From positions 1-64,000 of the forward strand of contig MEPC01000023.1 of NCBI GenBank assembly GCA_001769655.1: a DNA stretch of 64,000 nt. The letters are read 5' to 3'. The translations under genes were made by a program, and so were the position numbers. The notes beneath the pieces are model-generated. The model had not been told where the DNA came from, ran no database searches, and saw only the letters and a list, made by a program, of their open reading frames with translations. Positions 11,695 to 60,164 of this stretch are shown here, one piece after another. This stretch comes from Bacteroidetes bacterium RIFCSPLOWO2_12_FULL_37_12. GTDB lineage: Bacteria; Bacteroidota; Bacteroidia; 2-12-FULL-37-12. Position 1 is the stretch's first letter, and each line of letters starts with the position of its first letter.

Positions 11695-11751
11695 GGGATC
11701 GTGGGTTTAGTTATGGATGTTTTATCAAAACCACTCAGGTTTTAGAAAAAA

Positions 11752-11867
11752 AACATATAACACTAAACAAGAAATGAAAAATGTTTAAGTATGACGCAAT
11801 ACAAAAAACAATAACGATAATTTGAATAGGAACCTACTTAGTCATTTAGTATTAAGTGTTATATGTT
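11752..11867. repeat. Dispersed AT-rich inverted repeat (copy 2)
   Basis: Perfect 13-base arms at 11752-11764 and 11855-11867 bound a 90-base spacer. The left arm continues into ATAACACTAAACAAGAA, a 17-base run also present on the opposite strand at 28261-28295. The right arm covers two bases of the stop codon of the permease gene 11866-13200. Confidence 0.6.
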
Positions 11868-13200
11868 ATTCATTATTTTTTGGAAACCTGTTGATTTTAG
11901 TTATAATCTCATTTTTTAATCTTGGATCCAATGCATCCCGCAAGCCCTCCCCAATAAGATTATAAACGGTTACGGTTATAAAAATAGCTAATCCCGGGAA
12001 TAAAACCAACCACCAGGCATTAAAGTTTTCTCTCCCTGCATTTAACAACGAACCCCAGGTTACCACATCTGCCGGTACTCCAATTCCCAAAAAAGATAAA
12101 CCCGATTCAATCAGAATAGCAGAAGCAATACCAAATGCAATGGTTACGAAAACCGGTGCCAGCGCATTTGGCAAGGCATGGAAAAAAATGATTCTGAAAT
12201 TAGTATAGCCCAACGCTTTTGCCGCAGAAATATAATCAAGGGTTCTGATTCTTAAAAATTCAGCACGTACAAAACGGGCAATGCCTGTCCAGGAAGTAGC
12301 ACCGATTATGAACATAAGAATGAATACGGAAGGTTTTGCAATGGCGGCTACGGAAATAATAAGAATCAGACGCGGCATGGATACCAATATTTCTATTGTT
12401 CGGTTCAGGATGGAATCAACCGGGAAAGATACTTGTTTATTTAAACCAAACCAGGAAGATTTTTCAGATAATTTTCCACCCATATAAAAAATTAAAAGAA
12501 ACAGGAAACATATTAAGAGAGAAAGAAATAATTCCAATGTAAAAAAAGCAAACGATTGTGATAAGCTATCAGCGAGTATAAATTTTCTTTTTAGGAAGCC
12601 ATAAAAAAATCCGGGAATTAAACCGAGGGTTGAAAAAAGGTAAACACTTCTTTTGGAAGTGAAAGAATAATCCCCATAATATCCGGCAATGGCGCCGGAC
12701 ACTATGCCAATAATTGATGCAATTCCCATGGAAATAATTCCTATGCTTAGAGATATATAGGTACCATGAATCAACCCTGATAAAAGGTCTTCACCTCTTT
12801 TCCCGGTTCCTAACCAATGTCTGAATTTAGATCCTGTGGTTGAAATTTCTCCGGATTTTTTTTGAATTTTTTGCTCCGTAAATGGAGATATATATCCGGA
12901 ATTCATCAAATCACTTTTCCCGGGTGAAAAAGTCACCGGTGCCCATAAAATCCAATCTGTTTTTATTTTTTTCCATTCGGCTATGTCAAATTGAATTTTT
13001 TCATTTTTAAATGTCTCAGGGTTATAAAATATTATTGACTTTGAGGGAGTGAAAACCGGAAAAAAATAATTTCCGTTTAGTTTGACCATCAGCGGTTTTT
13101 CATTGGCAAGAAATGGAGCAAAGAGGGCTATACAGCAAAGGAATCCCAATATCCACAAGGAAATATAAGCGGGTTTATGATGTTTGAACTTTTGCCACAT
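11866..13200 (-). CDS. Peptide ABC transporter permease, OppC/DppC type
   Basis: The 444-aa membrane protein is the second permease of a peptide importer. The N-terminal membrane segment (ISLWILGFLCCIALFAPFL) and the C-terminal core with the EAA loop DYISAAKALGY and LIESGLSFLGIGVP are typical of OppC. It is longer than the usual 300 aa: there is a periplasmic stretch of about 90 residues after the first membrane helix, and an additional hydrophobic section around residues 180-240. It follows the OppB gene by 23 bases. The ATPases are not in the window. The last codons touch a dispersed repeat arm. Confidence 0.88.
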   Translation of the reverse strand: MWQKFKHHKPAYISLWILGFLCCIALFAPFLANEKPLMVKLNGNYFFPVFTPSKSIIFYNPETFKNEKIQFDIAEWKKIKTDWILWAPVTFSPGKSDLMNSGYISPFTEQKIQKKSGEISTTGSKFRHWLGTGKRGEDLLSGLIHGTYISLSIGIISMGIASIIGIVSGAIAGYYGDYSFTSKRSVYLFSTLGLIPGFFYGFLKRKFILADSLSQSFAFFTLELFLSLLICFLFLLIFYMGGKLSEKSSWFGLNKQVSFPVDSILNRTIEILVSMPRLILIISVAAIAKPSVFILMFIIGATSWTGIARFVRAEFLRIRTLDYISAAKALGYTNFRIIFFHALPNALAPVFVTIAFGIASAILIESGLSFLGIGVPADVVTWGSLLNAGRENFNAWWLVLFPGLAIFITVTVYNLIGEGLRDALDPRLKNEIITKINRFPKNNE

Positions 13201-16729: not shown

Positions 16730-16753
16730 GTAAAAAAGAATGAGAAAATTCTG

Positions 16754-16844
16754 CGGAGAGAGGGGGATTCGAACCCCCGGTAGCGCTTTAAGGCACTACG
16801 ACGGTTTAGCAAACCGCTCCTTTCGGCCACTCAGGCACCTCTCC
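16754..16844 (-). tRNA. tRNA-Ser(GCT)
   Basis: A 91-base class II tRNA with a long variable arm. The acceptor stem pairs GGAGAGG with TCTCTCC, discriminator G. The anticodon loop TTTGCTAAA places GCT at 34-36, reading AGC/AGU. CCA is not encoded. A minus-strand -7 box (TACCTTTG) lies at 16863-16870. Confidence 0.96.
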
Positions 16845-16862
16845 GGAAGGAGTTATCAGATA

Positions 16863-16870
16863 CAAAGGTA
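16863..16870 (-). promoter_or_regulatory. -7 box for tRNA-Ser
   Basis: TACCTTTG on the minus strand lies 19 bases before the mature 5' end of tRNA-Ser. It is divergent from the tRNA-Pro promoter. Confidence 0.5.
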
Positions 16871-16892
16871 AGATAATTTTGATAAGATTTCG

Positions 16893-16900
16893 TATCTTTG
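16893..16900 (+). promoter_or_regulatory. -7 box for tRNA-Pro
   Basis: TATCTTTG lies 16 bases before the mature 5' end of tRNA-Pro. It probably drives both tRNA-Pro and tRNA-Arg. Confidence 0.55.
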
Positions 16901-16916
16901 CCCTCTTTTTTACATT

Positions 16917-16991
16917 CGGGGCGTAGCGAAGCCCGGTTATCGCGCCTGCTTTGGGAGCAGGAGATCGCAGGTTCGAATCCCGCCGCCCCGA
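16917..16991 (+). tRNA. tRNA-Pro(TGG)
   Basis: A 75-base tRNA with acceptor CGGGGCG/CGCCCCG, discriminator A, and anticodon stem CCTGC/GCAGG around loop TTTGGGA, giving anticodon TGG. The T-stem is GCAGG against CCCGC, which leaves an A-C mismatch in its middle pair. Otherwise it is canonical. CCA is not encoded. Confidence 0.93.
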
Positions 16992-16999
16992 CATGTTCC

Positions 17000-17056
17000 G
17001 TTATCGTGTCCCGATTGAAATTGGGGAGATCGCAGATTCGAATTTCACCTCCCCGA
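17000..17056 (+). pseudogene. Degenerate tRNA-Pro 3' remnant
   Basis: From GTTATCG to CCTCCCCGA this stretch mirrors the D-loop-to-3'-end part of the tRNA-Pro just upstream, keeping GGAGATCGCAG, TTCGAAT and CCCCGA with several substitutions and one insertion. The 5' acceptor strand and D-arm start are absent, so it cannot fold as a tRNA. It looks like a decayed tandem partial duplication. Confidence 0.6.
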
Positions 17057-17060
17057 CTAC

Positions 17061-17133
17061 GGCCATGTAGCTCAACGGATAGAGCATCAGCCTTCTAAGC
17101 TGGGGGTTGCAGGTTCGATTCCTGCCATGGTCA
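17061..17133 (+). tRNA. tRNA-Arg(TCT)
   Basis: A 73-base tRNA with acceptor GGCCATG/CATGGTC (one G-T pair), discriminator A, and anticodon loop CTTCTAA giving TCT, which reads AGA/AGG. The next bases are CCA (17134-17136), so the 3' end may be encoded. An octanucleotide repeat follows at once. Confidence 0.96.
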
Positions 17134-17135
17134 CC

Positions 17136-17239
17136 AACCCATCTAACCATCTAACCATCTAACCACCTAACCATCTAACCATCTAACCACTTAACCATCT
17201 AACCACCTAACCATCTAACCATCTAACCACCCAACCCAT
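17136..17239. repeat. CCATCTAA octanucleotide satellite
   Basis: About 13 tandem copies of CCATCTAA, with CCACCTAA and CCACTTAA variants, fill the space between tRNA-Arg and the 3' end of the S9 peptidase gene. The unit recurs at 2790-2829. Confidence 0.9.
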
Positions 17240-17243
17240 CTCT

Positions 17244-19163
17244 TTACAACGTTTCTTTAAGCCACTTATAAAATTCAGAATGCCAGATAATGGCGTTTTG
17301 AGGTTTTAGCACCCAGTGATTTTCTTCCGGAAAATAAATAAACCTGCTTTTAATTCCACGAAGCTGTGCCGCCTGAAATGCTTCCATACTTTGCCCCTCT
17401 GGCGTTCTGAAATCCTTCCCGCCTTGAAAAATTAATATGGGCGTATTCCATTGTGACACAAGATTGCTCGGGTCATAGTGCTGGTACGTTTTCATAGCGG
17501 CAGGATTATTTATATCCCAATAAGCACCGCCAAAATCCCAGTTGGGAAACCATAACTCTTCGGTAGTGCCATACATGCTTTTGTTATTGAATATTCCATC
17601 ATGAGCGATAAAGGATTTAAAACGATTCTGATGAATGCCGGCAAGGTAATATACAGAAAACCCTCCGTAGCTTGCTCCCACACAACCAATCCGGTTTTTA
17701 TCTATAAATTTTTCTTTTGAAATTTCATCTACGGCAGTTAAATAATCCTGCATGTTTTGCCCGCCATAATCCTTGCTTATTTGCTCATTCCAGGCGACTC
17801 CAAAACCAGGCAGTCCTCTTCTGTTTGGTGCCACAACAATGTAACCATTTGCCGCCATTAATTGAAAATTCCAACGAAAAGAATAAAACTGTGTAAGGGG
17901 TGATTGAGGTCCGCCCTGACAATATAATAAAGCAGGATATTTTTTCGCAGGGTCAAAATCAGGAGGATAAATTACCCAAACGAGCATCTTCTTTCCGTCT
18001 GTGGTAGTCATATATCTTTTTTCGGTTTTGCTTATACCAATGGTCTTGTAAATACTGTCATTAACATGAGTAAGCTGTGTCATTTTACCCGATAGTAAAT
18101 CCACCGAATAAAGTTCAGCGGCATGATTCATATCCGTTCGGGAAACAATCATTGAAGAATTAATCTGAGCAATAATTTCAGAAACATCAAAATCACCTGT
18201 GGTTAATTGTTTGATTAATCCCGTTTTTTTTGTGTCACCGGAATAGGATGCTTCAAATAATTGTTCAGTGCCATCTATGGCGGCTAAAAAGAATATTTTT
18301 TTACCATCTTTACTCCAGATAAAACTATTGACAGTTCCATCCCATTTTTCTGTAAGGTTAATTTTTGTAATCCCATCGCTGACGATAATATCATTTTTAT
18401 CGGACTCATATCCATCTCTTTTCATGCTGAGCCAGGCAAGTGTACCGGAAGATGAAAAGGAAGGATGAATATCATACCCTGACATGCCTTCCGAAATATT
18501 GGTTGTCTTGCCTGTTGTAATATCGTAGGAAAATAAATCCGTATTGGTGCTTAAGGTATATTCTGTTCCGGCTTTCTTTTTAGTGACATAAATTATTTTC
18601 CGGCTATCAGGACTCCAGATATAATCTTCCATATCGCCGAATGGTTTTTGCGGACAATGATAAGGTTCACCTTCCATTATATCTTTTCCACCCTCTTCTT
18701 TTCCGTCTGTAATTTTATGAAGAAAGAGATGATTAAATTTTCCATCTTCCCATTGGTCCCAATGCCTGTAGGTTAACGAGTTGTATATGCGAACATCGGA
18801 TAAACTCATTTCCGGATAAAAGTCATTTCCAGAAATCTTTGTTATTTTTATTTCTTTTACAAGGATGATGTATTTCCCATCGGGGGAAATTCTTTTTTCG
18901 AAATTCGTAATTCCATCTGAGGTTGCCATTTCTTTCACAGCGCCACCGGAAACAGGGAGTATGTATTTCTTTTTGGTAAATGTATTACCGGCTATATCAG
19001 GAGTAGAAACCGTAAATATAATATTTTTATTATCCACGGTTATTCCGTTTGCTTTCACACGTCCTAATTTAAGCAACAGCTCAGGAGTTAAAGTAGTTTG
19101 AGCGTTTGAGAATGATGAATAAATAAGAATAATCAGAGGAAGAATAAAGCGGAGCGTGTGCAT
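17244..19163 (-). CDS. S9 family prolyl oligopeptidase-like peptidase
   Basis: The 639-aa secreted peptidase starts at 19163, where a signal peptide (MHTLRFILPLIILIYSSFSN-AQ) begins. A longer in-frame extension to 19271 is rejected because it would precede the -7-like box TATCTTCG at 19216-19223 and runs across a decayed repeat. An N-terminal propeller (about residues 30-380, with WSPDSRKIIYVT and WSKDGKKIFFLA) precedes the alpha/beta-hydrolase. The catalytic triad is visible: Ser in GASYGG, Asp in FQGGKDFRTP and His in PEENHW. This domain order and the HxGP-like YCQGGPQSP suggest a DPP5/acylaminoacyl-peptidase-like enzyme that takes peptides in the periplasm. Confidence 0.92.
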   Translation of the reverse strand: MHTLRFILPLIILIYSSFSNAQTTLTPELLLKLGRVKANGITVDNKNIIFTVSTPDIAGNTFTKKKYILPVSGGAVKEMATSDGITNFEKRISPDGKYIILVKEIKITKISGNDFYPEMSLSDVRIYNSLTYRHWDQWEDGKFNHLFLHKITDGKEEGGKDIMEGEPYHCPQKPFGDMEDYIWSPDSRKIIYVTKKKAGTEYTLSTNTDLFSYDITTGKTTNISEGMSGYDIHPSFSSSGTLAWLSMKRDGYESDKNDIIVSDGITKINLTEKWDGTVNSFIWSKDGKKIFFLAAIDGTEQLFEASYSGDTKKTGLIKQLTTGDFDVSEIIAQINSSMIVSRTDMNHAAELYSVDLLSGKMTQLTHVNDSIYKTIGISKTEKRYMTTTDGKKMLVWVIYPPDFDPAKKYPALLYCQGGPQSPLTQFYSFRWNFQLMAANGYIVVAPNRRGLPGFGVAWNEQISKDYGGQNMQDYLTAVDEISKEKFIDKNRIGCVGASYGGFSVYYLAGIHQNRFKSFIAHDGIFNNKSMYGTTEELWFPNWDFGGAYWDINNPAAMKTYQHYDPSNLVSQWNTPILIFQGGKDFRTPEGQSMEAFQAAQLRGIKSRFIYFPEENHWVLKPQNAIIWHSEFYKWLKETL

Positions 19164-19232: not shown

Positions 19233-19368
19233 CTGAAAATCATTGTAAGTAAATAAGACACTTTCATTCATACCCTGAATATTTCGTTTTTTACCTCAGA
19301 GTATTTATTTATACAGGGTTACAAATAAAGCGGGGAATTCGTGGTTTAGGAAGATGGTGAAGATGTGA
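19233..19368 (+). pseudogene. Decayed T9SS-cargo tails; left copy of direct repeat
   Basis: Bases 19233-19347 match 22998-23111 at roughly 90% by eye. The first part reads LKIIVSK-stop, like the end of the gene at 21501-23021 (KIMVSK-stop). After one extra T, the next part reads in frame as PQSIYLYRV...KMVKM-stop (stop at 19366-19368), like the end of the 594-aa gene (PQGIYFYRV...KIVKM). It is therefore non-functional leftover sequence of two cargo genes. Confidence 0.75.
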
Positions 19369-19729
19369 GGAACCCCTCTAAATCCTCAATAGAAATACCA
19401 ATAAATTGACTTATATAAGTTTTTTATTTTCCCCACCAAATTTTTTTTTATTATGAAGATCTTGTTTTTTAATAATTTTTGTTGTTAATTCGCTTTTCTG
19501 TTTGTTTTATTGACAGAACTTGATGCCTTAATATAAAAAATTTTCATTTTGACTTAATCCCTATAATCATGAAAACCCAAACTTTTTGCCCGCCATTACA
19601 TAACAAAACAATACATTGCGAGAAGTTCTACCTTAAAAATTTTATTCTGTTAAATTTATTTTCACTTTATAAGTATAATAATTAGTATGTTGGTTTAATT
19701 TATCAGACACAATTACTTATTCGATAAAT
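19369..19729. other. AT-rich intergenic region
   Basis: No gene was recognised in these 361 bases. The sequence is very AT-rich, without a good TTG/TAnnTTTG pair. It should contain the promoter of the 594-aa cargo gene, but I could not place it. Confidence 0.4.
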
Positions 19730-21514
19730 ATGAAAACTAAAACTTATTTTTTTCTCTTCTTAATTTCTGAAAGTATTAATTCACTCTTAGCGCAAACTCC
19801 AAAATGGGAAAAATTTTATGGTGGGACAGGTGCTGAAAGCGCTAAGTATGTAATTCAAACTCAAGATCATCAGGGCTACGTTGCAGGTGGAGGTCCTAGA
19901 ATTGGTAATACTTCTAACAATCATATTTTCCTTTTTAAAGTAGATTTTAACGGTGATACATTGTGGACGAATTATGTTGGAGAATCAAGTAGTTCACATG
20001 ATTTTATTGAAAAAATTATTGAAATTCAGGATGGAAATCTTGTAATGTGTGGATCAAGTCAGGATTCTCTGCAAATTATCTCTCTAAAAAGAAATGGTAA
20101 TCCATCTTTATTCAAAACAGATTATGCCGGAACTATTTTATGGGTAAAACATTATGGATATAATTTTGGTGGCTATTTTTTGGATATGATAGAAACACCA
20201 GATACCGGTTATATTATGGTTGGCTTTGTTAATACATTCCCTGATACAATGTCTAATGATGATATGTATATTGTGAAGACAAGTTCTGAAGGTGATACTC
20301 TTTGGACTAAGAAATGGGGCGGTCCATTTCGAGATTTTATTAGCGGAATATCGCCAACCTTTGATGGAGGTTATCTTCTCTTGGGTGGAATTTCGGACAC
20401 TATTTGGTGGACAGCATTGGATTTGTCGCTTACAAAAATTAGCCCTAATGGAATAATTGAATGGACAAAATCTTTTGATTTTGGTTCATTAGCAGATTTT
20501 GGTAGCAATATTATTCAAACTCCTGATTCAGGTTTTGTAATTTGTGGACAAAGGAACAATGAATTGACTATTGGAAATGCTTTTTTATTAAAAATAAATT
20601 CCCTTGGAGATACTTTATTTTCAAAAACAATAGGTCCCACTTCTAATTATTCTTCATCAAATTCCATTTCTCCTACTAATGATAAGGGATTTATTATAAC
20701 TGGAAATTATGATCCTAAAATTACTTTTGAAAACGATGTAAATATATTTCTTTTCAAAACAGATTCTTTATTGCAAGAACAATGGATAAGAGTTTTTGGA
20801 GTTGCCCGTTACGATGGTTCTTTTGATGAAGTTAGTCATTGTGTAAGGGAAACTTTTGATGGAGGGTATATTGTTTCTGGATTTGCTGAAAATAATCTAA
20901 TAAATTCTGATGATGCTTATCTCATCAAAACCAACTGCGCCGGATTCGCCGGTCCTCCTCTTGCAAAATTCAATATATCTCCCAACGAAATGAAAGTTAA
21001 ATTTGAAAACAAAAGTGACAGCGCCGTAAATTTCAAATGTTATTTCGGTGATGGAGATTCATTGGTTTATGATTGGGATAAATCCTGGCTCTGGATACGC
21101 AAGTCGCCACCGGATACGTTTACGCATGTTTATGCAGATACGGGAACATATACTATCACGCTCTTAGCGGGCGCTTGCGGGGAGTGGGATACGCTTAGGC
21201 AAACGATAAATATTTTTCGTACTGCCATAGCGAAAAATGAAATGGAAAATTCATCCTCTCTTATTAAGATTACGCCTAATCCCATGTATGATGTAATTCA
21301 GGTTGAATCAAATGCCAATGAACCCATTCGTTTGAATATGTATGATGTAACCGGGAAAAAATTATACGAGTTTGAGTTTGGGAAAAGTGTCACTCAGAAT
21401 AAAAATACATTTGTTCATAAAATTAATATTTCGTTTTTACCGCAGGGTATTTATTTTTACAGGGTTATTGACAAAGCGGGGAATTTGGGTTTTGGAAAAA
21501 TTGTTAAGATGTAA
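19730..21514 (+). CDS. T9SS-sorted secreted protein, propeller plus PKD
   Basis: The 594-aa protein has a signal peptide (cleavage near LLAQ, about 22). Residues 25-410 repeat a motif of the form DGGYLLLGG / DSGFVICGQ / DKGFIITGN / DGGYIVSGF at about 50-70-aa spacing, with DTLWTK between, which looks like a beta-propeller. A PKD-like domain follows (FTHVYADTGTYTITL). The last 80 residues are a T9SS type A sorting domain (ITPNPMYDVIQVES to GIYFYRV). Its role on the cell surface or outside the cell is unknown. The sequence coding its last 30 residues exists in two decayed copies nearby. Confidence 0.82.
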   Translation: MKTKTYFFLFLISESINSLLAQTPKWEKFYGGTGAESAKYVIQTQDHQGYVAGGGPRIGNTSNNHIFLFKVDFNGDTLWTNYVGESSSSHDFIEKIIEIQDGNLVMCGSSQDSLQIISLKRNGNPSLFKTDYAGTILWVKHYGYNFGGYFLDMIETPDTGYIMVGFVNTFPDTMSNDDMYIVKTSSEGDTLWTKKWGGPFRDFISGISPTFDGGYLLLGGISDTIWWTALDLSLTKISPNGIIEWTKSFDFGSLADFGSNIIQTPDSGFVICGQRNNELTIGNAFLLKINSLGDTLFSKTIGPTSNYSSSNSISPTNDKGFIITGNYDPKITFENDVNIFLFKTDSLLQEQWIRVFGVARYDGSFDEVSHCVRETFDGGYIVSGFAENNLINSDDAYLIKTNCAGFAGPPLAKFNISPNEMKVKFENKSDSAVNFKCYFGDGDSLVYDWDKSWLWIRKSPPDTFTHVYADTGTYTITLLAGACGEWDTLRQTINIFRTAIAKNEMENSSSLIKITPNPMYDVIQVESNANEPIRLNMYDVTGKKLYEFEFGKSVTQNKNTFVHKINISFLPQGIYFYRVIDKAGNLGFGKIVKM

Positions 21515-23021
21515 AAAAAAAGTAATCATAAAAAAAACAATTTTCTTATTAGCAGCTGCATTATCAATCAATGCTTTTGCACAAGATAGCCAACCCTTAA
21601 CTGATAGGCAATATCAAATATATAATGTGGACAATCAGCCACCGTTCGGCTTGGCGTTTATACCGAAACTAAACAAGTTTCACTCGGAGAACGCGGAGGT
21701 TGCAGAGAATATAAAAGTTGAATATCTTTCCTCTAAAATGAGCAAAACCAAATCATTAATTCCTATCTTGGATAGTGTATATCGTTGGCAATGGGATACC
21801 CTTACCAGTACATGGGGTATGAAAAAATATTGGAGACATATAAATATAAGTTACGATGCCAAAAATAATATGACAAGTTACATATTTCAATATTGGAATG
21901 ATACCGTATGGAAAAACTGCTGGCAATACACTTATACCTACGATGCCAATAATAATCAGACCAGTGAATTATTTCAAACTTGGGAGGACAGTGTTTGGGT
22001 GAACTCAGATCAAGCCACTTTTACTTTCGATGTAGATAATAATCAGACAAGTGAATTATATCAATTTTGGAAAAACAGTATTTGGGTGAACTCAGGTCAA
22101 TCCGCTTATACCTATGATACCAAAAATAATCAGACAAGTTATTTTCATTTGGTATGGAACGATAGTGTTTGGGTGAACTCAGGTCAATCAGTTTATACAT
22201 ACGATGCCAATAATAATCAGACAAGTTCATTAATTTTAACATGGAAAGATAGCGCATGGGTGAACTCAAGTCAAAACACTTATACCTACGATAGCAATAA
22301 TAATAGAACAAGCATAATAATTCAAAATTGGAACGACAGCGCATGGGTGAACTCAAGTCAAAACACTTATACCTACGATGGAAATAATAATCTAACAAGT
22401 TCATTAAGTATTGCATGGAACGGTGGTGAATGGGTGAATTCCCGTCAAACCACTTATACTTACGATTTCAATAATAATAAAACAAGTTATGTAGTTCTAT
22501 ATTGGATGGACAGCATCTGGGTGAATGACCAACAAATAATTTATACTTATGATTCTAATAATAATAGGACAAGTATATTAATGCAAAATTGGAACAGTAT
22601 CTACTGGGTGAATTCCAACCAATACAATTATTCTTTTGATGCCAATAATTTTAAAAAAAGTGCCACCTATAAGAGTTGGTTTGGTTCTGACATAATTTTT
22701 GGTGATAGCACTTACTATTATTTTCATACCGAAATTGTTGACGTAAAAGAATCAAGTCCATTTATCCATCAGAAAGAATTTACAATCTATCCTAACCCGT
22801 CAAATAATGGAAAACTTACACTATTTATCAATACTCAGATATCAATACAAAAAACTAAAATTAATATTTATAATGTACTCGGTGAAAATGTTTATAGTTC
22901 AATTGTTCACTCTTTCAATAATATAGACATTGATTTATCAAACCAGCCCTCAGGTATTTATTTTATAAAATTTCAAACCGAAAACAATGTTGTGGTACAG
23001 AAAATTATGGTAAGTAAATAA
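21501..23021 (+). CDS. T9SS-sorted protein with ten 29-aa repeats
   Basis: The protein has a signal peptide (KKTIFLLAAALSINAFA-Q), ten near-identical 29-aa repeats (consensus YTYDxNNNQTS...W.DSxWVNSxQ; an 87-base unit at 21846-22690) and a T9SS sorting domain (FTIYPNPSNNGKLTLF to GIYFIKF). The start is uncertain. The signal peptide would naturally begin at 21528, but that codon is ATA. The nearest legal in-frame starts are TTG at 21501 or 21492, overlapping the preceding gene by 14-23 bases; I chose 21501. An ATG at 21372 would add a non-secretory leader. The gene is probably translated with the one before it. The repeat resembles YD/RHS-type strands. Confidence 0.75.
   Translation: MLRCKKKVIIKKTIFLLAAALSINAFAQDSQPLTDRQYQIYNVDNQPPFGLAFIPKLNKFHSENAEVAENIKVEYLSSKMSKTKSLIPILDSVYRWQWDTLTSTWGMKKYWRHINISYDAKNNMTSYIFQYWNDTVWKNCWQYTYTYDANNNQTSELFQTWEDSVWVNSDQATFTFDVDNNQTSELYQFWKNSIWVNSGQSAYTYDTKNNQTSYFHLVWNDSVWVNSGQSVYTYDANNNQTSSLILTWKDSAWVNSSQNTYTYDSNNNRTSIIIQNWNDSAWVNSSQNTYTYDGNNNLTSSLSIAWNGGEWVNSRQTTYTYDFNNNKTSYVVLYWMDSIWVNDQQIIYTYDSNNNRTSILMQNWNSIYWVNSNQYNYSFDANNFKKSATYKSWFGSDIIFGDSTYYYFHTEIVDVKESSPFIHQKEFTIYPNPSNNGKLTLFINTQISIQKTKINIYNVLGENVYSSIVHSFNNIDIDLSNQPSGIYFIKFQTENNVVVQKIMVSK
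21846..22690 (+). repeat. 87-bp coding minisatellite, ten copies
   Basis: Repeat starts fall exactly every 87 bases (21846, 21933, 22020 ... 22629). Each unit encodes a YxYDxNNNxTS block, and the last copy is diverged. An antisense open frame at 22021-22416 is a by-product of this periodicity. Confidence 0.9.
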
Positions 23022-23115
23022 AACACTTTCATTCAAACCCTGAATTTTTCGTTTTTTACCTCAGGGTATTTATTTATTCAGGGTTAAGACAAAACGGGGA
23101 ATTCGGGGTTTCTAA
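22998..23115 (+). repeat. Right copy of 115-bp direct repeat
   Basis: Bases 22998-23111 correspond to 19233-19347. The first part is the live end of the preceding gene (KIMVSK-stop). The rest is a decayed cargo tail readable as PQGIYLFRV before an in-frame stop at 23113-23115. Confidence 0.8.
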
Positions 23116-26131: not shown

Positions 26132-27067
26132 TTACCTTTTTTTTACCGGTTTCAAAATCAAATACACCCCAAGAATTATCAGCACAAATCCACCAATACC
26201 CATCCACCCGATCGTTTCTCCATCAGCAATACCCCATCCTAGTGCCACTACCGGCATTAAATACGTGCAACTTTGAGCAAAAACGGCATCGGATATTTTC
26301 AATAAACGGTAGAAAAAAATATTTACTAATGAAGTATTCACCAGCGCAAGTAGTATGATAAAAACAAACGAGTAGGTTGCATCTGGATTCGTCATAAATG
26401 TTTCGGTAGGAAAATTAAGTATAAGGTAAATACCTGCGGGAAACATTAAAAAGGAAAAAGTGCATGCAGTAATGTAAAGAGGTTTGATGCTTTGTAAATA
26501 TCTTTTAACCAGATGACTGCTGATAGCATACAAAATAGTGGCAAGTATGATTAAAAGACCGTAATAGTTAAGGGTAAGAGTGCCACTTGTTCTAAAAATA
26601 ATAAGTAATAATGCGCCACCTAATCCTATCAAAACCCCTAAGGTTTTAAAAATTGTATTCTTATAATTAAAAAAAAGAACTCCCAATAAAAGACCCCACA
26701 AAGGAGTTAGTGTATTTAATATTCCGGCAGTGGCACTGTTGATTACAGTTTGTGCATAAGTAAAGAGAAAGGGAGGAATCCCGGTGCCACAAACTGCGGC
26801 AAGCAATAGAATAAGTAGTGTTTTGTTATCTAATTGTTTAAAAATCCTGTAGGAAAATGGAACAAAAACCAACCCGGCAATCAATAACCTCATCGAAGCA
26901 ACGTGTTCAGGTGAAAAAGCAATCAGCCCTTTTTTCATCAGCATAAATGAACTCCCCCAAACGATTGATGTAAATATCAGAAGAATCCATGCCTCTGTTC
27001 TTTGGTAGAATTTATTGTTGAGTAATAAATTTTGTATTTTTTTCAATGAATATTCATTATTCAACAA
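26132..27067 (-). CDS. EamA/DMT family permease
   Basis: The 311-aa membrane protein shows ten hydrophobic segments in two similar halves. The first EamA motif is WILLIFTSIVWGSSFMLMK, and LTPLWGLLLGVLFF is the fourth-helix type segment typical of drug/metabolite transporters. The substrate cannot be inferred; amino acids or small metabolites are usual. It is the last gene of the minus-strand run that begins with deoC, but a 113-base satellite separates it from the gene before, so co-transcription is uncertain. Confidence 0.88.
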   Translation of the reverse strand: MLNNEYSLKKIQNLLLNNKFYQRTEAWILLIFTSIVWGSSFMLMKKGLIAFSPEHVASMRLLIAGLVFVPFSYRIFKQLDNKTLLILLLAAVCGTGIPPFLFTYAQTVINSATAGILNTLTPLWGLLLGVLFFNYKNTIFKTLGVLIGLGGALLLIIFRTSGTLTLNYYGLLIILATILYAISSHLVKRYLQSIKPLYITACTFSFLMFPAGIYLILNFPTETFMTNPDATYSFVFIILLALVNTSLVNIFFYRLLKISDAVFAQSCTYLMPVVALGWGIADGETIGWMGIGGFVLIILGVYLILKPVKKR

Positions 27068-27077
27068 TTAACAATTA

Positions 27078-27190
27078 ACACTAAACACTAAACACTAAAC
27101 ACTAAACACTAAACACTAAACACTAAACACTAAACACTAAACACTAAACACTAAACAACAAACACTAAACACTAAACAACAAACAATTAT
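27078..27190. repeat. CACTAAA heptanucleotide satellite
   Basis: About 14-15 tandem copies of CACTAAA, with two AACAACAAA interruptions, start two bases 3' of the truncated aldehyde dehydrogenase stop codon. The motif AACACTAAAC also occurs in the dispersed inverted repeats at 11752 and 28261. Confidence 0.92.
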
Positions 27191-27191
27191 T

Positions 27192-28115
27192 TCAAACCCC
27201 CATCGGATGCCAGGTAGTTTTGATTTCCTGAAAATCTTGAATATGATAGGGACTTTGTGCGGCTTCTGCAAACCAATCGTCATGAGAAGAAAGAACCACC
27301 CGTTTAACATTCAGGGTTGCATTTTTCTGAACGGATAATTTTTCCTGTTCATCGTTTCCACAATATAAAATACCATTTACGTCCATGTGCGTGCTGAAAT
27401 GTTCTAATAACTCGGAACGGAAACCGGTTAATATGTTTATCACACCGCCCGGCAGGTCTGAATCATTGAGAACTTCAGCAAGCGTAATTGCCGGAAGTGG
27501 TTTTGATTGCGAGGCAAGTGTCACACAACAGTTTGCGCCGCTGATGACGGGAGCCATGGTTGAAATCAACCCGAGCAATCCATATTCCTCCGGAGCAATG
27601 ACAGAAACTACTCCTGTTGGTTCGGGTACAGAAAAGTTAAAATGGGAAGACGCAACAGGATTCACCGAAGAAAAAATCTGCTGATATTTATCACACCAGC
27701 CCGCATAATAAACCAAGCGGTCAATGGATTTTTCCGTTTCCGCAAGGGCTTTTTTTTCAGTGGAACCGCAGTGAACCAATTCTTCCACAAACTGAGCTTT
27801 TCTGCCCTCCATGATTTCAGCCATGCGATATACTATCTGACTCCGGTTAAATGCAGTCATTTTATTCCAAACCGAAAATGCATTTCTTGCAGACACCACT
27901 GCTTCCCGGAAATCCTTTTTGGAAGCGCGGCAAATATTTACCTTTAGATGGTTGGATGGAGAGTTCCATTCGTAATATCTGCCTGATTCTGTGCGGGGAA
28001 ATTGTCCTCCGATATAGAGCTTGTAGGTTTTTGCAACCGAAAGCCGGTTTGAAAGAATATCCTCTGAAATGACACCAGAGGATTTTCCGTTATTTTTTTT
28101 GGATAGGGGTTTCAT
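27192..28115 (-). CDS. Non-catalytic truncated aldehyde dehydrogenase (ALDH16-like second domain)
   Basis: The 307-aa protein aligns with the N-terminal, cofactor-binding half of aldehyde dehydrogenases (KLYIGGQFPRTESGRYYEWNSP, then AFSVWNKMTAFNRSQIVYRMAE, PTGVVSVIAPEE, PGGVINILTGFRSEL). The active-site blocks are missing: no ELGGK glutamate motif and no GQxC cysteine motif. Normal enzymes have about 480-500 aa. It follows a full ALDH gene (194-base gap with a repeat) and deoC. The pair of a complete ALDH and a 300-aa dead ALDH is the domain plan of ALDH16, here encoded by two genes. It probably has a structural or regulatory role. Confidence 0.75.
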   Translation of the reverse strand: MKPLSKKNNGKSSGVISEDILSNRLSVAKTYKLYIGGQFPRTESGRYYEWNSPSNHLKVNICRASKKDFREAVVSARNAFSVWNKMTAFNRSQIVYRMAEIMEGRKAQFVEELVHCGSTEKKALAETEKSIDRLVYYAGWCDKYQQIFSSVNPVASSHFNFSVPEPTGVVSVIAPEEYGLLGLISTMAPVISGANCCVTLASQSKPLPAITLAEVLNDSDLPGGVINILTGFRSELLEHFSTHMDVNGILYCGNDEQEKLSVQKNATLNVKRVVLSSHDDWFAEAAQSPYHIQDFQEIKTTWHPMGV

Positions 28116-28170
28116 TTTATTATAATTAAGTTCTTTGTCAATTCATAAATATTTTTTCTCTTTAAAAAAT

Positions 28171-28295
28171 AATACTAAACATAAAACACAAAATAAAAAA
28201 TGTCTAGGTGGTTATCCTCGATCTATTTATGTGATAGTTTACGGATTTGCAATTTACTTAAACATTATTCACTTCTTGTTTAGTGTTATGTGTTT
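28171..28295. repeat. Dispersed AT-rich inverted repeat (copy 3)
   Basis: An imperfect left arm (about 28171-28202) faces a right arm at 28261-28295. On the minus strand the right arm contains ATAACACTAAACAAGAA, identical to the copy at 11752. It ends 14 bases 3' of the ALDH stop codon. Confidence 0.55.
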
Positions 28296-28309
28296 CTTCC
28301 TTGTTTAAA

Positions 28310-29779
28310 TTAAAACTTCAAATACGCCGCCAGCCCATGCACTCCTCCCTCTCTTCCCATTCCACTTTCCTTATACCCGCCAAAAGGGGAAGATGGGTCA
28401 AATTTATTGTATGTATTTGCCCAAATTACACCCGCCCTCATCTGCCGTGTCACTTTGAAAATCTTGGAACCCTTATCCGTCCAAACTCCACCCGATAAAC
28501 CATAAGGCGTATTATTTGCTTTTTCAATTACTTCTTCCACAGTACGGAATGTCTGAATCGCTAAAACGGGTCCGAAAATTTCTTCCTGTACTATTCGATG
28601 CGATTGTGACACATTCGTGAAAAGAGTCGGTTTGAACCAATACCCTTTTTGTGGCACTGAACAGGATGATTGATAACATTCGCCTCCTTCTTTCACCCCC
28701 CATTCCACCAATTCTTTTATTTTTTCTAATTGCATTTTTGAATTAATAGCGCCAATGTCTGTATTTTTATCTAAAGGGTCTCCAATAATTAATGTTTCCA
28801 TTCTGTCTTTTAATTTGCGAATCACTTCGGAGGCAATTCCTTCCTGTACAAACAAACGTGAACCCGCACAGCATACATGTCCCTGATTGAAAAAGATGGC
28901 ATTTATAATTCCTTCTACTGCCTGGTCAATTGGGGCATCTTCAAAAATAATATTAGCCGCTTTACCACCAAGTTCAAGTGTTATTTTTTTCTTCGTACCT
29001 GCAATTGCTTTCTGAATAATCTTTCCCACTTCAGTAGAACCGGTGAAAGCTATTTTGTTAATGTCCAGATGATTAACGATTTCAACTCCCGTGGCACCGG
29101 CGCCTGTAATAATATTGACGACTCCGGGAGGTAAATCAGCATCCTGAATTAATTCCGCAAGTTTCAATGCAGTGAGTGGAGTGGTTTCTGCCGGTTTTAG
29201 CACAACCGTATTTCCGCAAGCAATGGCAGGAGCAATTTTCCATGCCGCCATCAATAAAGGAAAATTCCATGGAATTATTTGCCCTGCAACTCCCAATGAC
29301 TGTGGTTTTCTATTCGGAAAAGCATACTCCAGTTTGTCAGCCCAACCGGCATAGTAAAAGAAGTGAGCCGCAGAAAGTGGCACATCCACATCTCTGGATT
29401 CGCGAATCGGTTTGCCTCCATCCATGGATTCTATGACAGCGAACTCTCTGGCACGTTCCTGTAAAAGGCGGGCAATCCGATAAACATATTTTCCCCGTTC
29501 TTTTGCCGGAATTTTTGACCAATGTTTTTCGTATGCATTCCTGGCGGCTTTAACTGCCTTGTTTACATCTTCTTTAGACGCTGTTGCTATTTCAGCAATT
29601 TTTTCTTCGGTTGCAGGATTTATAGTGTCAAAGTAATTTCCTTTTGAGGGTTTTACAAACTTTCCATCTATGAAAAGGTCGTATTGTTTTTTTAACCGGA
29701 TATGGCTGGCACTCTCCGGCGCCGGTGCATATTTCCAATCGGTTTCAAAATTAAGGGCGAGAGTTTCTGTGGTTTTCAT
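28310..29779 (-). CDS. Aldehyde dehydrogenase, catalytic
   Basis: The 489-aa NAD(P)-dependent enzyme oxidises an aldehyde to a carboxylate. The catalytic set is complete: Asn182 in PWNFP, Lys195 in LKPAE, Glu269 in LELGGK and Cys303 in GHVCCAGSR. The family GQ before the Cys is GH here. It starts 3 bases after the deoC stop, so translation is probably coupled. The likely substrate is the acetaldehyde released by DeoC (inference from context). A truncated, catalytically dead ALDH follows, which together resembles a split ALDH16. Confidence 0.93.
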
Positions 29780-59309: not shown

Positions 59310-59719
59310 CGAAAAAAAGTCACTGCTTGATAACGGTAAACAGTTGAACAGCCGAAATCAGCACGAACGCATAACAGCAAGTTTGTTCAAGCTAGGGTGA
59401 ATGAGACCGCTGTGCTAAGTAGCGAAAATTTAGGATTAATGAATTGTATAGTTTAATTTACATCTTTTTCTCACATAGTTTGCAATTTAATTTTACACCT
59501 TAGATTTGGACTTGAGCATTTTACCGAAAGGTTTTTATACGTTCAGGATTATTCACAATGGGAGTGTGTATAATAAGAAACTCATTTTACAGTAAGGATA
59601 CCAAAACTACCTAAATATTTCGGCTAATTCTTATTTTCATGTGATGGATAGCATTTATCCTTGCTTTTTTATTTTATCAGGATTAAAAATTTGCTACGTC
59701 CTCTTATTGTATAAAAACA

Positions 59720-59806
59720 GTTCCATAGGAACGGTTCATATTTTAACAACGGACTTCAGTCCGTTGTTGTAACGCCTGACTTCAGACCCTTGAGTTCCGT
59801 AGGAAC
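59720..59806. repeat. REP-like palindrome cluster
   Basis: Two GTTCCnnnGGAAC palindromes (59720-59732 and 59794-59806) flank a perfect palindrome AACAACGGACT-TC-AGTCCGTTGTT at 59745-59768. Confidence 0.7.
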
Positions 59807-59908
59807 GAAACATAAGAAAAAAAACTTTCAGGGAAGAGTTTATGGAGTTATTGAAAAAGTTTGAAGTATCGCATGATTAAAGATACATTTTGAGGATCTG
59901 ATATGAAT

Positions 59909-60044
59909 CGTGCCGGAGTTTACCCTGACGGAGGAAGGGGCACTTTTAACCATAGAACGTACAGATTTGGAGTACGGACTAAATCCATCCCTGTAAAATA
60001 GAGGCGTGCCGGAGTTTACCCTGACGGAGGAAGTGGCACTTTTA
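59909..60044. repeat. 40-bp direct repeat pair
   Basis: Copies at 59909-59948 and 60005-60044 differ at one base. Each starts CGTGCCGGAG and ends GGCACTTTTA, so GTGCC/GGCAC can also pair within each copy. The start-to-start distance is 96 bases. Confidence 0.8.
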
Positions 60045-60164
60045 CACATCATGCATGTTTTTCTGCTGACGTTCTGTACTTTAAAATCGGTTTGTGGCAA
60101 TTTCTCCAGCACATAAAAAATAAGAATTACCGTAACTGTTCGGTCCAAGATGAAAAAATGCAAT

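Follow-up and report, generated by a model that had tools for sequence, protein, structure and literature searches.

A T9SS cargo gene pair bracketed by chimaeric tail scars: probable remodelling of a tandem cargo array by duplication, deletion and recombination

We analysed a window of 64,000 nt (contig MEPC01000023.1, positions 1-64,000) from a genome of 3.94 Mb in 43 contigs. Two neighbouring genes for predicted T9SS cargo are enclosed in this window by two direct repeats, and in each repeat the end of one type of cargo gene is joined to the frameshifted tail of the other. The best explanation for the locus as a whole, and in our judgement a probable one, is that duplication, deletion and recombination reshaped an array of T9SS cargo genes arranged in tandem. 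Judging from the sequence, duplication and loss at this locus are well supported, and beyond them we infer an active swapping mechanism.

Layout of the locus

The features of the locus are listed here by their positions in the window.

19233 to 19368, + strand: left scar A, ~22 nt of a gene-2-like end, then a frameshifted gene-1-like tail of ~35 codons to TGA
19461 to 19512, + strand: relic of a promoter region, resembling that of the large cargo gene at the head of the paralogous operon on contig C24
19569 to 19685, + strand: possible relic of the start and signal peptide of that large C24 cargo, MKTQTFCPPLHNKTIH...* (tentative)
19730 to 21514, + strand: gene 1, 594 aa, with a putative signal peptide, a propeller body of the SBBP-like type (19730-20914), and PKD and T9SS type-A sorting domains
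20915 to 21514, + strand: PKD and sorting-tail module of gene 1, 199 codons, ~90-91% nucleotide identity to the C24 paralogue; its end is the live copy C
21501 to 23021, + strand: gene 2, a protein of 87-bp (29-aa) repeats with a T9SS type-A sorting domain
23000 to 23111, + strand: right scar B, in which a frameshifted remnant of a gene 1 tail adjoins the end of gene 2
23035 to 23111, + strand: RNA hairpin of 32 pairs within B (-30.7 kcal/mol), flanked by convergent genes

The left neighbour of the locus is a gene for a Dpp5-like peptidase (dpp5) on the opposite strand and the right neighbour is a convergent gene for a 934-aa T9SS cargo. Both genes of the pair are predicted T9SS type-A cargo, with sorting domains that score above the curated cut-offs: for TIGR04183 we obtained 33.8 bits for gene 1 and 44.8 bits for gene 2 (cut-off 23), and for PF18962 38.2 and 51.8, respectively (cut-off 27). 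By eye the N termini of both genes resemble signal peptides, the ancestral ATG of gene 2 being lost. On contig C24 the gene 2 homologue begins with ATG AAA AAA; the equivalent codon here is ATA (21528-21530), and the frame of gene 2 starts with a TTG at 21501, inside the tail of gene 1. Either this TTG within the upstream tail serves as the start or the start has been lost, and gene 2 may depend on translational coupling or be in decay. The stretch of ~215 nt which lies between the two genes on C24 is missing at this locus. The 87-bp tandem repeats are confined to gene 2. In a comparison with solved structures there was no match for gene 1 and one weak match for gene 2 (4r8o, E=0.002).

Several other features of the window were recorded. 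Three tRNAs are located at 16753-17136 with dpp5 between them and the gene pair, and we found no link between this tRNA island and the pair. An 8-bp tandem repeat (CATCTAAC) occupies 17132-17244 directly 3' of a tRNA-Arg gene, and a 7-bp tandem repeat (CACTAAA) separates two genes at 27065-27190. At 27192-28115 there is a 307-aa aldehyde-dehydrogenase-like frame adjoining a full-length one of 489 aa (28310-29779); by eye the shorter frame is possibly a truncated duplicate. A dispersed repeat of ~0.4-0.5 kb at 59622-60132 shows 74-84% identity to sites on contigs C9, C4, C24 and C37. The segment 11715-11905 is 84% identical to a site on contig C19, and inverted-repeat partners of 11748-11881 occur at 28164-28298.

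Composition and history of the direct repeats

An earlier note on this DNA had described 19233-19347 and 22998-23111 as repeats of about 90% identity that enclose the two genes, and had proposed that they be aligned pairwise with a third, live copy of the tail at 21420-21514. The pairwise alignment of A (19235-19347) and B (23000-23111) gave ~89% identity with a single 1-nt gap, and in a search of the whole genome with A the match to B had an E value of 2.5e-36. The live tail C of gene 1 was recovered by the same search (21414-21492, 83%, E=3e-15), and its longer alignment covers about 21400-21512. With E up to 0.001, A matched A, B and C only, and the sole further match in the genome was the tail of one paralogue. 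A genome-wide dispersed repeat is ruled out for A by these three matches and the one paralogue tail.

The composition of the repeats was found as the note had stated it, a gene-2-like end followed by a decayed gene 1 tail, with refined extents. The first ~22 nt of scar A, as far as ~19256, are the end of a gene resembling gene 2; here CTGAAAATCATTGTAAGTAAATAA encodes LKIIVSK*, and the equivalent gene 2 end in B reads QKIMVSK*. The end of gene 2 itself matched A with 90% over 52 nt (E=5e-14). In both scars the gene 2 end is joined to the gene 1 tail with no spacer. Both also contain an extra T (a run of 6 T, where C and the paralogue have 5), so that the remnant of the gene 1 tail is out of frame in A as well as in B. 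The two scars differ in extent: A retains the gene-1-type tail through the stop TGA (19366-19368), ~35 codons, whereas B ends earlier and is cut after GGGGTTT (23111).

In A and B alike, the stop of gene 2 is joined to the interior of a gene 1 tail. This points to an illegitimate deletion joint rather than to a homologous crossover from tail to tail. As the joint and the frameshift are the same in both scars, the junction formed and decayed once and was doubled afterwards. The suggestion that a tandem duplication was followed by loss is thus borne out by the one joint and one frameshift in A and B, and by a second pair in the same order on contig C24.

We propose the following history. In an array that repeats gene 1 and gene 2 as a unit, DNA would have been deleted at a microhomology resembling AATAA, so that the stop of a gene 2 came to abut the interior of the sorting tail in the gene 1 that follows. 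The resulting junction J would then have acquired the frameshift. In the second step, to which the common joint and frameshift attest, J was doubled when the complete unit, from the promoter through the cargo genes to J, was duplicated in tandem. In the third step nearly all of the left unit would have been deleted, with J remaining as scar A beside dpp5 and the surviving gene pair between A and B, and the tail remnant of B has probably been retained as a 3' hairpin (terminator) of gene 2. This history is read from one genome and the comparison genomes were no closer than the same class: a DNA search across 99 genomes of the class returned short weak matches only, a GTDB scan with the PKD and tail module found no relative, and the relatives found by a GTDB scan with dpp5 had at most 65% identity.

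The same order of A, genes and B would formally be obtained if a circle carrying the pair had integrated through one crossover at J (a Campbell-type event), which leaves direct repeats at both ends. However, none of the adjacent reading frames is an integrase, transposase or plasmid gene and the same pair is present as a chromosomal paralogue on C24, and we consider such an entry very improbable.

The second gene pair and the mosaic structure of gene 1

On contig C24 the second pair, gene 1' and gene 2', lies downstream of a gene for a 1456-aa cargo. The bodies of gene 1 and gene 1' share 17-37% of their amino acids in 30-codon windows (~25% overall). For the last 199 codons we observed an abrupt rise to ~92% amino acid and 90-91% nucleotide identity, and in gene 1 the switch coincides with IKTNCAG (ATCAAAACCAACTGCGCCGG), the final blade motif of the propeller. 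The dS between gene 1 and gene 1' was 0.38 in the PKD and tail module compared to 1.85 (saturated) in the body. Between gene 2 and gene 2' we obtained 0.18 for the signal peptide, 0.25 for the tail and 1.07 for the body, the last value possibly being inflated by the register of the repeats. Eight other propellers of the genome were closer to the body of gene 1 than the body of gene 1' was, and the bodies as sisters were rejected with AU p=0.0205, a moderate p obtained with long body branches.

The best reading of these data is that gene 1 is a chimaera which carries a C24-like PKD and sorting-tail module on a propeller body from another branch of the family; that either the body or the tail was exchanged in gene 1 is well supported. 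Near-identical 3' ends on distant cargo bodies, as well as gene remnants beside cargo genes (here scars A and B), are the features by which tail recombination of the hagA-kgp type is recognised. The earlier note had read the repeats as pointing to tandem duplication with subsequent deletion or recombination between sorting-domain tails. An exchange of bodies on shared tails is supported by the mosaic gene 1 and, more widely, by the tail-only identity and the low dS of the tails in other paralogues. A homologous crossover between tails does not fit the junction in A and B, which has the form of an illegitimate deletion joint.

A single segmental duplication with its left end inside gene 1 could have put an old 3' part, the tail with gene 2, behind another propeller gene, with no continuing recombination of tails. 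The similar dS of the gene 1 module, the gene 2 signal peptide and the gene 2 tail (0.18-0.38) would fit one such event, but the far more diverged gene 2 body would not, and other paralogues show the same effect in their tails. In addition, the segment 19461-19512 upstream of gene 1 matched the promoter region of the 1456-aa cargo gene on C24 with 80% over 54 nt (E=2e-6), which indicates that the left end was duplicated as well. We regard a single duplication as a rather unlikely account that deserves to be kept in view. The promoter match and a frame at 19569-19685 with a weak similarity to the start of the large C24 cargo (tblastx E=1.7e-4) suggest that the locus once had a three-cargo layout like that of C24, the part that concerns 19569-19685 being weak.

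Possible tail exchange elsewhere

The genome contains at least 150 type-A tails. We fetched ~107 cargo regions and compared 146 tails, few of which share DNA similarity pairwise. On contig C20 an intact solo tail (C20:37206-37439, in frame within a 109-aa frame; L119 7066-7354) lies directly upstream of a gene for a 1466-aa cargo, and it is 89.6% identical over 289 bp to that cargo's own tail. A third cargo near the 1466-aa gene has the same tail. We read C20 as a second tail-body-tail layout. A further tail fragment of 86 nt was seen at L119 90-174.

For three whole-gene paralogue pairs the tail was the 85-codon window with the lowest silent divergence. None of the earlier windows was as low as the tail (0/25, 0/149 and 0/68; Fisher p=0.0036, 2.6e-5 and 1.2e-4), though the pairs had been picked partly by tail similarity, which biases them towards low tail divergence. 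In two other paralogue families of the genome the tail was no less diverged than the body. A similar picture was obtained for G021, a genome from another family of the same class: one tandem cluster of T9SS cargo genes (L299) has similarity in the tails only (best p=6e-6), with tail DNA 71-85% identical and very different bodies, whereas in another family of G021 the tails are more diverged than the bodies. As far as these comparisons go, tail homogenisation is recurrent and not universal. Since other paralogues of the genome show a similar homogenisation, the results suggest that ectopic recombination has recurred at sorting-tail DNA in this genome.

The likeness of the tails might also be attributed to purifying selection on sorting domains, with no recombination at all. 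A sorting domain is an obligate secretion signal, and dN is low in the shared gene 1 module (0.046, dN/dS ~0.12). Selection of this kind does not explain why silent sites in the tails are less diverged too, why the change in gene 1 is abrupt and falls at one codon, why the bodies of gene 1 and gene 1' are not sisters, or why most of the ~146 tails have no mutual DNA similarity. On the silent sites, conservation by selection alone was largely ruled out, and we hold the explanation as a whole to be highly doubtful. Recombination of tails remains the reading that we prefer.

Scar B as an RNA hairpin

On the + strand the fold of B (-30.7 kcal/mol) was better than those of 200 out of 200 shuffled sequences, with z about -6 (-6.5 and -6.2). 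The opposite strand folds much more weakly because the stem uses G-U pairs. B is among ~10 3' flanks of cargo genes in this genome with z < -5. On the structure of B, which was derived from B itself and on which these counts rest, B forms 32 of 32 pairs, A forms 28 and each coding tail forms 22. For scar A the fold is at the level expected by chance (z about -0.5). The description of the repeats as decayed tails therefore needs a qualification: the frameshifted remnants in A and B agree with it, but a strong and strand-specific hairpin in B is not mere decay.

A stable hairpin after the stop codon, as seen in B behind gene 2, is one mark of an intrinsic terminator. A G+C-rich stem with a direct run of U, the other mark, was not seen: the hairpin is followed by UUU and then CUAAGAUCUUUU only, with no long U run, and a simple terminator scan did not list it. 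As B lies directly behind the stop of gene 2 and before a convergent gene, a role as terminator or as stabiliser of the 3' end is plausible. The hairpin could have been built by selection for pairing or by a template-switch mutation within a quasi-palindrome.

One could take A and B for copies of a selected RNA element, a terminator hairpin kept beside cargo operons, with an origin from tails that is incidental. The fold of B, far better than chance, and the gain of pairing once the element was no longer coding would both be expected of such an element. A, however, folds at chance level and holds a gene 2 end and a whole gene 1 tail up to the stop, and the genome has no other copy. We think this unlikely, and continue to read A and B as doubled scars of cargo tails.

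Relation to known systems and implications

In P. gingivalis the neighbouring T9SS cargo genes hagA and kgp have virtually identical 3' ends including the CTD, the loss of kgp has been attributed to homologous recombination, and in strain HG66 the intergenic space is riddled with remnants of hagA and kgp (PMC9328147). The present locus shares with that system the near-identical 3' ends of cargo genes, the loss of genes and the gene remnants. Unlike in hagA-kgp, the joint here is illegitimate and the scar became a hairpin; the hagA-kgp change was observed by comparing live variants whose genomes are closed, whereas the present case is reconstructed from one genome. The KLIKK proteases of Tannerella forsythia belong to different protease families, are encoded in two clusters and have nearly identical CTDs, according to the part of the report used here (PMC4404884). 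As in our case, differing cargo bodies are found on nearly identical C-terminal domains, with proteases as bodies there and a propeller and repeat proteins here. That part of the report describes no scars or direct repeats, and recombination was not its question (PMC4404884). The gingipain and adhesin proteins of P. gingivalis, which are modular surface proteins of the T9SS, owe their diversity to rearranged domains and to the exchange of alleles (PMC5266723). Modular T9SS proteins are remodelled by exchange in both cases, but there the exchange concerns mainly adhesin modules and occurs between strains, while here it concerns sorting-tail modules common to the paralogues of one genome.

The present case belongs to the same kind as hagA-kgp and KLIKK, and to the open-access literature it adds two things: a doubled chimaeric scar that brackets genes, and the apparent reuse of that scar as a hairpin. 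The earlier note had seen in the locus a way to swap or amplify cargo genes, which we likewise infer from the history of this one genome. We also put forward, as a tentative generalisation that we hold with less than even confidence, that environmental Bacteroidota with large T9SS repertoires have a standing recombination platform: tails would be homogenised across the genome, bodies would be swapped where body and tail meet, solo tails and scars flanking genes would act as future crossover sites, and leftover tails would be recycled as 3' RNA hairpins.

Genomes like this one encode at least 150 T9SS cargos, and how so many bodies gain one export tag is an unsettled question. The datable scar, the mosaic gene and the drop of dS in the tails of several paralogue pairs make tail-mediated exchange directly testable. 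If it is true that B terminates transcripts, a dead export tag would have been reused as a regulatory RNA element.
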